From Prevotella pallens ATCC 700821 (GTDB lineage: Bacteria > Bacteroidota > Bacteroidia > Bacteroidales > Bacteroidaceae): a stretch of DNA of 64,000 nt. The notes under the pieces are model-generated. The model was not told the origin of the DNA and did no database searches. It saw only the letters and a program-made list of their open reading frames with translations. Made by a program: the position numbers and the translations under genes. The stretch is taken from assembly GCF_000220255.1 (NCBI RefSeq), contig NZ_GL982514.1, positions 490,436 through 554,435 of the forward strand, in the 5' to 3' direction. Positions 19,530 through 46,540 of this stretch are shown here, piece after piece; position 1 is the stretch's first letter, and each line of letters opens with the position of its first letter.

Positions 19530-19610
19530 CTTTAGATATCTATAACGTTCGTTTTAGACGTCTGTCGTGTTCGTTTCAGATATCTGTCGTGCGGGTTTTA
19601 GATGTCTGTT
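19530..19610 (+). repeat. Array A: four 22-bp units with palindromic cores
   Basis: 8-bp cores start at 19534 (AGATATCT), 19556 (AGACGTCT), 19578 (AGATATCT) and 19600 (AGATGTCT): an exact 22-bp period. Linkers are of the form RTCGTGTTCG then TTTY. The last unit ends with GTTTTAAATG, like the last unit of array D. It lies between the convergent 3' ends of feoB and the LolA-like gene. Confidence 0.85.
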
Positions 19611-27015: not shown

Positions 27016-27116
27016 TGACAGATATCTAAAACAATACTGACAGATATCTGAAACGAACACGACAGATATCTGAAACGAACGTTACAGACGACTAAAACAA
27101 GCACAACAAACATCTA
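27016..27116 (-). repeat. Array B: five 22-bp units, opposite orientation
   Basis: Cores start at 27020, 27042 and 27064 (all AGATATCT), 27086 (AGACGACT, degenerate) and 27108 (AAACATCT, degenerate): exact 22-bp spacing. The linkers read as the reverse complement of array A (GAAACGAACACGAC). The rest of the 702-base gap 26692-27393 is AT-rich with no gene seen. Confidence 0.85.
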
Positions 27117-32710: not shown

Positions 32711-32814
32711 GCTATGATATCTGAAACGAATATTACAGACGTCTAAAACGAAACTCACAGACGTCTAAAACGAACACGACAGATATCTAAAACGAAAGCG
32801 ACAGATATCTAAAA
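32711..32814 (-). repeat. Array C: five 22-bp units, opposite orientation
   Basis: Cores start at 32715 (TGATATCT, degenerate edge), 32737 and 32759 (AGACGTCT), 32781 and 32803 (AGATATCT), exactly 22 bp apart. The linkers read AAAACGAACACGAC, the reverse complement of arrays A, D and E. It lies between the small helical gene and the promoter of the SpmA/B-like gene. Confidence 0.85.
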
Positions 32815-41691: not shown

Positions 41692-41801
41692 TTTTAGATA
41701 TCTATCACGATTGTTTTAGATATCTATCACGATCGTTTCAGATATCTGTCGTGTGCGTTTCAGATATCTGTCATTCACGTTTTAGATATCTGTTTTGAAT
41801 G
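41692..41801 (+). repeat. Array D: five 22-bp units
   Basis: Five perfect AGATATCT cores start at 41696, 41718, 41740, 41762 and 41784, exactly 22 bp apart. The linkers are ATCACGATTG, ATCACGATCG, GTCGTGTGCG and GTCATTCACG, each followed by TTTY. The last unit ends GTTTTGAATG, almost the same as the end of array A. It lies upstream of the fimbrillin operon and downstream of dnaB. Confidence 0.88.
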
Positions 41802-44703: not shown

Positions 44704-44800
44704 AAGCTTCTGCTTATACAAATAATTAGTGCATAAATACTTACGAACACTTGATGTACATCATTTAATTGCATTATACACTAAAATATATTAGATTATA

Positions 44801-44832
44801 TTTGGAACTACTCTAAACATTATCTACCTTTG
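44801..44832 (+). promoter_or_regulatory. Strong promoter of a non-coding transcript
   Basis: TTTG (44801-44804), a 20-base spacer and TACCTTTG (44825-44832): a near-perfect Bacteroidota promoter with no gene directly downstream. Confidence 0.7.
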
Positions 44833-44838
44833 CATCAG

Positions 44839-45084
44839 ATAATAAATACAAGAGATAATACTTCAATAGATTGTTTAGGTTATAAGATTAGTTGTTTAAG
44901 TAAAAAGTTAGGTATTTAGGCTCAATAGGAGTAATTTAGGTAAAAGATTTGTTAAGCAGGATTTCAAATTTTGAGTATCAGTATTGATTGAACACCGTGA
45001 GATGTTAATCATTATTTAAAGCTCAAAGAACATTTTAAGTTTTAAGTTTAAAAGACTAAGCACGACGTTGGTCGTGCTTTTTTT
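44839..45084 (+). ncRNA. Probable small non-coding RNA (about 245 nt)
   Basis: It lies between a near-perfect promoter and a strong intrinsic terminator (45059-45084), in a stretch without any plausible coding frame. The 5' half contains four TTAGGY copies (TTTAGGT 44874-44880, GTTAGGT 44907-44913, TTTAGGC 44915-44921, TTTAGGT 44935-44941). The size and independent promoter and terminator fit a stable RNA of the 6S type or another Bacteroidota-specific RNA. I could not fold it into a recognised family, so the identity is open. Confidence 0.6.
45059..45084 (+). terminator. Intrinsic terminator of the non-coding transcript
   Basis: AGCACGAC (45059-45066), loop GTTG, GTCGTGCT (45071-45078), then a T-run. 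A perfect 8-bp GC-rich stem. Confidence 0.88.
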
Positions 45085-45324
45085 GTGTCGTACCAGTTTA
45101 ATATATAACAGTCGTGGTGGCAAGTTATATAAGAGTGCAATTAAAAAGTTACAATGTGACACAATATAAAATATCGCCTATTCATTATAAATAGCACATT
45201 TATATAATACACATAGTACACTCGAACATAACATTCGTATCTATCAATAAGACAACAATAGAGGCAATAGGAAGATACAAAACTCGAAAAAAAACTTAAT
45301 TCGCAAGAATATGTCAGCATTTTC

Positions 45325-45355
45325 TTTGTCAGTTTCTAAAATTTTCATAACTTTG
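45325..45355 (+). promoter_or_regulatory. Promoter of the rpmB-rpmG operon
   Basis: TTTG (45325-45328), a 19-base spacer and TAACTTTG (45348-45355), 52 bases before the rpmB ATG. Confidence 0.75.
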
Positions 45356-46308: not shown

Positions 46309-46540
46309 TTTTAGATATTCGCCGTATTCGTTTTAGATATCTATCGTGCTCTTTTCAGATATCTATCAGCTTCGTTTCAGATATCTATCAGTTCCGTTTT
46401 AGATATCTATCAGCTTCGTTTCAGATATCTATCAGTTCCGTTTCAGATATCTATCAGTTCCGTTTTAGATATCTATCGTGCTCTTTTCAGATATCTATCA
46501 GCTTCGTTTTAGATATCTATTATTTCTAAATTAGATACCA
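46309..46540 (+). repeat. Array E: eleven 22-bp units, the largest array
   Basis: Cores start at 46313 (AGATATTC, edge), then nine perfect AGATATCT at 46335, 46357, 46379, 46401, 46423, 46445, 46467, 46489 and 46511, and 46533 (AGATACCA, edge): exact 22-bp period. Linkers fall into a few classes (ATCAGCTTCG, ATCAGTTCCG, ATCGTGCTCT) that alternate, as expected from duplication of pairs of units. It lies between the convergent L28 operon and radA. Flanking bases 46119-46308 and 46541-46849 show no gene. Confidence 0.92.

Follow-up and report, generated by a model that had tools for sequence, protein, structure and literature searches.

In E. coli, the promoter of the Hfq-dependent small RNA FnrS contains an FNR-type site, and RNAs of the CsrB type titrate CsrA. 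Closer to the locus described here is FopS of Bacteroides (RF04319, BTncRNA_FopS), which binds RbpB and, with its R1' seed paired at the start codon, represses susC-type mRNAs (PMC11697453, in the part available); GUAGGAUA is the sequence preferred by the RbpB of B. thetaiotaomicron (Adams et al. 2021, cited in an excerpt of PMC12119571). A further small RNA of B. thetaiotaomicron, SnoA/BTnc284, is antisense to the hcp promoter and lies beside hcpR, according to the portion of PMC13370916 at hand. Thousands of candidate structured RNAs have been reported from human microbiomes (PMC8040213, also in excerpt), and that set might contain unnamed parts of the repeat-RNA family set out below. The matches listed from the open-access literature included neither an sRNA map of Prevotella nor a description of this family, and no link was found to the periodontitis ncRNAs in the available part of PMC7160235.

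The window – the whole 64-kb stretch of Prevotella pallens DNA that was analysed – contains, between two genes labeled ispE and rpmB, a promoter and terminator which an earlier note (the source of both gene names) had taken to define a candidate small RNA. The promoter is present and its -7 element follows the consensus TAnnTTTG (PMC7366714, in part); however, TTTG and TAccTTTG are separated by 21 bases as read, not the 20 that had been claimed. The terminator is borne out: the stem-loop (45058-45079) comprises 9 pairs and a 4-base loop, and its T run (45078-45084) has seven T, five of them beyond the stem. Terminator-like sites number 6 on the two strands of the 3-kb region, against 1.8 +/- 1.3 in shuffles. 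The intervening 245 or so bases were rightly described as lacking a coding frame, there being no plus-strand ORF of at least 30 aa inside the inferred transcript; a 33-aa ORF starts at 45068, within the terminator, and on the minus strand three ORFs of 30-48 aa overlap positions 44801-45084. Missing from the earlier description is the CRP/FNR-like box upstream of the promoter. The sequence is conserved in other genomes, and the interval 44838-45085 is very probably a small-RNA gene. The named relatives of the RpmB encoded here are for the most part Prevotella records, with identities reaching 91%.

Table 1. Features of the small-RNA locus in the window, and the family copies of the P. pallens genome.
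Feature	Position	Strand	Basis or remark
CRP/FNR-like box TTGATGTACATCAT	44751..44764	+	one base off palindrome TTGATnnnnATCAA; distance from box start to TAccTTTG end, 82 bases
-33 element TTTG	44800..44803	+	by reading; TTTGGA kept in G017 relative
-7 element TAccTTTG	44825..44832	+	by reading; kept in relatives
Inferred small-RNA transcript	44838..45085	+	promoter to terminator, and G017 relative; start +/- few bases
Block AATAGATTGTTTAGGTTAT	44865..44883	+	identical in G017 relative; nearly so in family 5' module
5' repeat half	44875..44962	+	TTAGGY at 44875, 44908, 44916, 44936, plus related TTAAG, ATAGG, GCAGG units
Predicted hairpin with CCGUGAG loop (diverged long-form hairpin)	44970..45026	+	comparison with G017
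Intrinsic terminator AAGCACGAC-GTTG-GTCGTGCTT with T run	45058..45085	+	kept in G017
Short form of family	C1:653661		R1 66 bits
Long form of family	C2:99777		R1 49 bits
Window copy	ispE-rpmB gap, C2		R1 ~18-23 bits (E 1e-4 at 18 bits); R1 contains this copy

The earlier note had suggested a covariance search against known families, and had left the choice between a 6S-like RNA and an undescribed one. At Rfam 15 cut-offs no family was detected in the window, nor in the loci of ten relatives. The 6S proposal fails: although 6S RNA is likewise intergenic, stand-alone and of similar size, RF01693 (Bacteroidales-1), which we take to be 6S RNA, has no gathering match in the window, and its sole match in the P. 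pallens genome at E <= 0.001 lies elsewhere (G000:C1:1588092-1588280, 115.7 bits). The RNA can be called undescribed as far as these cut-offs go, with the qualification that it or its relatives show sub-threshold likeness to FopS, GibS (RF04182) and BTnc231 (RF04180). SnoA, as portrayed in the available part of PMC13370916, is also a Bacteroidales small RNA tied to a CRP/FNR-family regulator; a SnoA homologue is nonetheless ruled out by locus, the window RNA lying between ispE and rpmB on C2 and the P. pallens hcp and HcpR-like gene on C1.

A BLAST search with the window RNA matched 5 of 60 genomes. The copy in genome G017 is 72% identical (E 7.5e-22), likewise lies between ispE and rpmB, and keeps the promoter, the repeat half, the hairpin loop and the terminator; the alignment gaps (13, 2 and 1 bases) fit no reading frame, and this relative was counted as non-coding. 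Two other matches, L004 and L005, are short stretches of FopS-like RNAs. Used as query in its turn, the copy from G017 found matches in 30 of 299 genomes of the genus (G017 and P. pallens included), the better ones having E values of 1e-16 to 1e-9. Reading of these loci revealed a recurrent design, in which an upstream box and a TAnnTTTGC promoter are followed, typically, by AATAGATTGTTTAGGTTAGTAGTAATAGATTTAGGTTTTTAGTTATT, then by more AAGG/AGG units, and finally by a hairpin of the CGUGAG type and a terminator. Two of the matched loci, L133 and L143, did not resemble this design on reading. GATGCAAGAT..CGCCGTGAGGCG..ATCAAGC is found in a long form of the RNA, and many genomes have a short form.

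The extent of the family was measured with R1, a sequence-only model of its 5' module that has the window copy among its sequences. R1 matches 255 of the 276 genomes of the genus with at least 90% completeness. In a sample of the taxonomic family 45 of 249 genomes match, all of them in this same genus out of the 22 sampled; in a sample of the order there are 4 matches in 295 genomes: P. pallens itself, one genome of the same genus and two weak matches outside it (G671 and G698), which on reading proved unlike the window RNA. P. pallens has three family copies (Table 1), of which the window copy is the most diverged. The window RNA, linked to the others by its syntenic relative in G017, is probably a diverged copy of a multicopy small-RNA family of the genus Prevotella, whose members have a CGUGAG hairpin and repeats of the unit (U)UUAGGUU.

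The inclusion of the window copy in R1 bears on how firmly it belongs. A second model, R2, leaves out the window copy along with the two relatives close to it. R2 places its sole match in the 64 kb at the right position, with a score of 5.7 bits (E = 1.1). Over 41 sources (830 kb, excluding the stretches with the two better P. pallens copies) neither G017 nor the window was found at E <= 1, the sole matches within that value being G108 (E 0.009) and L205 (E 0.075). For the family 5' module, AATAGATTGTTTAGGTTA followed by (T)TTAGG repeats, the window copy has E 1e-4 with the model that contains it and E 1.1 with the one that does not. Two other family traits are found there: the CGUGAG hairpin followed by the terminator, and a box 82 bases before the promoter end, where the family has 81-84. 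Given that R1 contains the window copy and that R2 misses G017, the family link is transitive: the window copy is joined to G017 by sequence and synteny, and G017 to the family by BLAST, with shared promoter geometry in support. Putative membership of the window copy hence rests on the G017/G108 link, on synteny and on the promoter box.

Several further features were noted around family loci. L140 and L141 hold two repeat-RNA modules in tandem behind apparently one promoter, which suggests that the module can be duplicated inside one transcript. Many of L120-L132 and L147-L176 have a second palindrome-like element, e.g. TGTGTGCGCAAACA, which directly precedes the promoter in many long forms and is upstream of the box in many short forms; in the window copy none was seen. 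Among loci L204, L134, L135, L137, L138 and L285, the short-form RNA of several genomes adjoins a gene whose product has the sequence MRVLI.NTSE.TGGAAVAANRL and by eye resembles a glycosyltransferase; in P. pallens this gene is ~6.5 kb away. Downstream of the P. pallens short form, at L177 1984-2043, a microRNA model scores 34.1 bits on one strand and 32.3 bits on the other, short of its cut-off of 90; this is probably a palindromic repeat.

How close is the family to the known Bacteroides RNAs? FopS, like the repeat RNAs, forms a multicopy sRNA family with a U-rich 5' part containing AAGGUU-type units and a terminator at its end, and one of the three FopS genes of P. pallens has a CRP/FNR-like promoter of identical type. 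FopS differs in being ~70 nt long with one R1' seed and in starting with GUGUUUUUCAU, a start that by reading is absent from the window copy; the window RNA, at ~245 nt, carries several repeats and one additional hairpin. Over model positions 18-71 the FopS model gives the window copy 20.4 bits (E 1.5; cut-off 56), and FopS is the only one of the three models listed for it, GibS and BTnc231 both being absent at E <= 10. Likeness of the window copy to the FopS seed is not significant (best 15-mer match to the R1' core, P 0.09). By site count, such likeness is significant in the short form of G224 (P 0.001) and the long form of G148 (P 0.003), and borderline in G017 (0.048).

The short forms resemble BTnc231 and GibS in the CGUGAG hairpin and in the terminator with its CGUGAG-like loop, and the matches to the two models fall at one place. 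BTnc231 matches 6 of 10 short-form loci (19.3-28.2 bits, E 0.049-8.2; cut-off 80.4) and GibS 3 of 10 (28.3-29.2 bits, E 2.6-3.8; cut-off 115); for the P. pallens short form (L177) the values are 25.4 bits and E 0.0022 in a 271-base search for BTnc231, and 22.9 bits and E 0.32 for GibS. With scores of 19-29 bits against these cut-offs, the family does not belong to either; moreover, the repeat module lies upstream of the matches or only partly in them. The likeness brings the repeat-RNA family closer to known Bacteroides sRNAs, and the repeat RNAs may be a Prevotella branch of a GibS/FopS/BTnc231 superfamily of common origin.

The clustering of four TTAGGY motifs, to which the earlier note had drawn attention, is significant: the four span 67 bases (Table 1). 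The motif is not enriched across the window as a whole (55 observed, 72 expected). The window RNA has 4 TTA(A)GG sites where its shuffles average 0.81 (P = 0.004); this cluster, with a span of 110 bases, is the densest same-strand cluster in the 64 kb. The TTA(A)GG count of the P. pallens short form is not significant (P = 0.32).

The window RNA folds better than most shuffles (z = -2.28; 5 of 200 shuffles equally good). In its predicted hairpin one arm reads GAUU/AAUC, against GGUU/AACC in G017; the long-form outer pairs are not kept and a different outer stem is predicted. Evidence for the long-form structure comes from 19 distinct hairpins; the search pattern that collected them prescribed the loop, the outermost pairs and the first pair of the loop stem. 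The three positions of the inner GAU/AUC arm form pairs in 19, 19 and 18 of these hairpins. Pairs three and four of the loop stem form in every sequence, with both-sided changes from G-C to A-T in one and from C-G to T-A in three. Positions five and six are paired in just 3 and 5 of the 19, and the loop stem is therefore four pairs long. RNAalifold, applied to 13 hairpins, found one pair with a double change, in an alignment whose GGNN/NNCC arm is visibly out of register.

To represent box and promoter together, genomes were searched for TTGAYNNANRTCA, 45-70 bases and TANNTTTG, the reversed pattern serving as control. P. pallens has 6 sites against none for the reversed pattern. Three are the repeat-RNA family copies and one, at C1:117905, is a FopS gene; at C2:102865 the transcript would end in relic-like AGATTAGGTAG..GATTGATTCAGGATAAC, possibly a relic; the sixth site is AT-rich. 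All of 40 genomes of the genus have sites, 312 in total against 7 for the reversed pattern (table sums, in which a few sites are counted twice with two lengths). The length is 82 or 83 bases in 95 of the first 119 sites listed, where anything from 66 to 91 was allowed. Viewed from the RNAs, the box is present at 51 of 57 parsed family loci, including the window copy (61 in all; L133 excluded), at 81-83 bases in 50 and at 84 in one, and at 11 of the 26 rows parsed from 31 FopS loci tried, among which L012 and L238 are the same gene.

We inspected 44 sites: all those of G000, G010, G069, G085, G016 and G100, four of the five in G108 and one of the twelve in G024. Sixteen lead into an R1-matching RNA and nine into a FopS gene. 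The remaining 19 lead into neither; four of them nevertheless have a significant repeat count (L284, L289, L292 and L295), and several lead into ORFs, some of them ordinary, as in L278, where one of 162 codons begins 25 bases downstream. These 19 sites weigh against the reading favored below. Tiny ORFs of ~25-46 codons, several hydrophobic by eye, were seen in the box-driven transcripts L283, L284, L297, L131 and L142. On the strength of the shared geometry, a CRP/FNR-type regulator probably switches on the repeat-RNA family together with some FopS copies. The arrangement recalls FnrS, an sRNA whose promoter likewise has a site of the FNR type; FnrS differs in phylum, sequence and Hfq dependence.

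Candidates for this regulator can be named. Three proteins of P. pallens match PF13545. One falls just below its cut-off and above that of PF00027, is related to structure 1zyb (E 8e-41), presumably from B. thetaiotaomicron, and is named 'transcription regulator, CRP family'. Another is a weak match in a stretch with MarR- and Fur-like ORFs by eye. The remaining one, above cut-off, adjoins hcp by reading and would be HcpR; the region in question, G000:C1:1540637 (L313, L336), holds hcp and the adjoining HcpR-like gene, both named by reading. Upstream of this hcp is GGAACAAATGTTAC, near the Bacteroides HcpR2 motif GTAACnnnnGTTAC published in PMC1274295 (in the part available), and no TTGATnnnnATCAA/TTGAT was seen there by eye. 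These two observations argue against HcpR as regulator of the box. The HcpR-like protein and the 1zyb-related protein both stand as candidate regulators. No usable motif was found in the accessible portions of PMC12750200 and PMC12040651.

What, then, might the window RNA do? The reading we favor, and hold to be fairly likely, is that it is a stand-alone, multi-seed, trans-acting regulatory RNA of the Prevotella repeat family, activated by a CRP/FNR-type protein. On the evidence of the fixed geometry, the activator would bind TTGATGTACATCAT, ~80 bases upstream of the start, and help polymerase at the TTTG/TAnnTTTG promoter. As sequence and conservation show, the 5' half of the RNA exposes several U-rich (U)UUAGGUU-type units, and the CGUGAG hairpin and the terminator come after them. 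The repeats would most likely act as interchangeable seeds that pair with mRNA start regions, broadly like the seed of GibS/FopS. A FopS gene would belong to the same predicted regulon; since the repeats have the sense of the FopS seed, they could be competitors of FopS or act on the same class of targets, and would not pair with it.

Searches for targets gave little signal. With RNAduplex, run on 638 start regions of the P. pallens genome, neither the short form nor the window copy showed an excess over five shuffled RNAs; the test is weak because the positive control, FopS, surpassed every one of the five at three thresholds out of four, and then only slightly. A k-mer test on P. pallens stretches (589 genes) was null. 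In G016 (268 genes) short-form 10-mers occurred 11 times against 1.7 in shuffled start regions, although shuffled cores reached 14; this result is no more than suggestive. SusC candidates for a target test numbered none after a first filter and one after a second.

The repeats could instead titrate a protein, repeated UUAGG units binding an RNA-binding protein in the manner of CsrB. Their clustering in the window copy would fit such a sponge, as would the presence in several relatives of AGGATAAC, to be compared with the sequence preferred by RbpB. However, RRM_1 (PF00076) was not found in the P. pallens genome at E <= 0.001, where a control Bacteroides genome has one, and a sponge for RbpB is disfavored on this account. 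We regard titration as unlikely.

Alternatively, the RNA is real but acts through its 3' hairpin, its partner being for instance a single dedicated target or protein; the repeats would then serve only to keep the 5' half open. The recurrence of the CGUGAG-type hairpin in long and short forms is what this would predict, and the sub-threshold likeness to BTnc231 falls between hairpin and terminator; yet 255 of 276 genomes have a 5' repeat module conserved well enough to be recognized, and we think the proposal improbable. The same degree of doubt attaches to the idea that the window RNA is a degenerating paralogue of little function, the work being done by the two better copies. Its low R2 score, and an R1 score of 23 bits against 66 and 49 for those copies, are as expected of decay, but box, promoter, repeats, hairpin and terminator are all there and synteny with G017 is kept. 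That the RNA is an rpmB leader or attenuator, or the 3' UTR of ispE, is suggested by its position between the two genes and is scarcely credible, given that it has its own promoter and terminator, that rpmB has a promoter-like TAACTTTG of its own (45348-45355, by reading), that other family copies are located elsewhere, and that ispE lies directly upstream of rpmB only in L002 of 81 rpmB loci (6 of which hold <250 bases of upstream sequence).

If the multi-seed, trans-acting reading is correct, a genus-wide sRNA family is added to Prevotella, a large genus; the repeat family and part of FopS are tied to one predicted regulator through a fixed promoter geometry; and signal, regulator and targets become directly testable. 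It would also raise the question of how FopS acts in a genome where no RRM_1 protein was found. We extend the argument to the genus with greater reserve, at somewhat short of an even chance: one CRP/FNR-type regulator may have a direct output consisting largely of small RNAs (the repeat family and part of FopS), through which a single signal would be turned into a broad post-transcriptional program without RbpB.

The window also contains a repeat of another kind. A 22-base repeat with the core AGATATCTNTC forms short arrays at 19578, 27017-27071, 32778-32810, 41696-41772 and 46327-46520; the core has 18 matches in the window, where 0.12 are expected, and occurs again downstream of the P. pallens FopS gene in L238.
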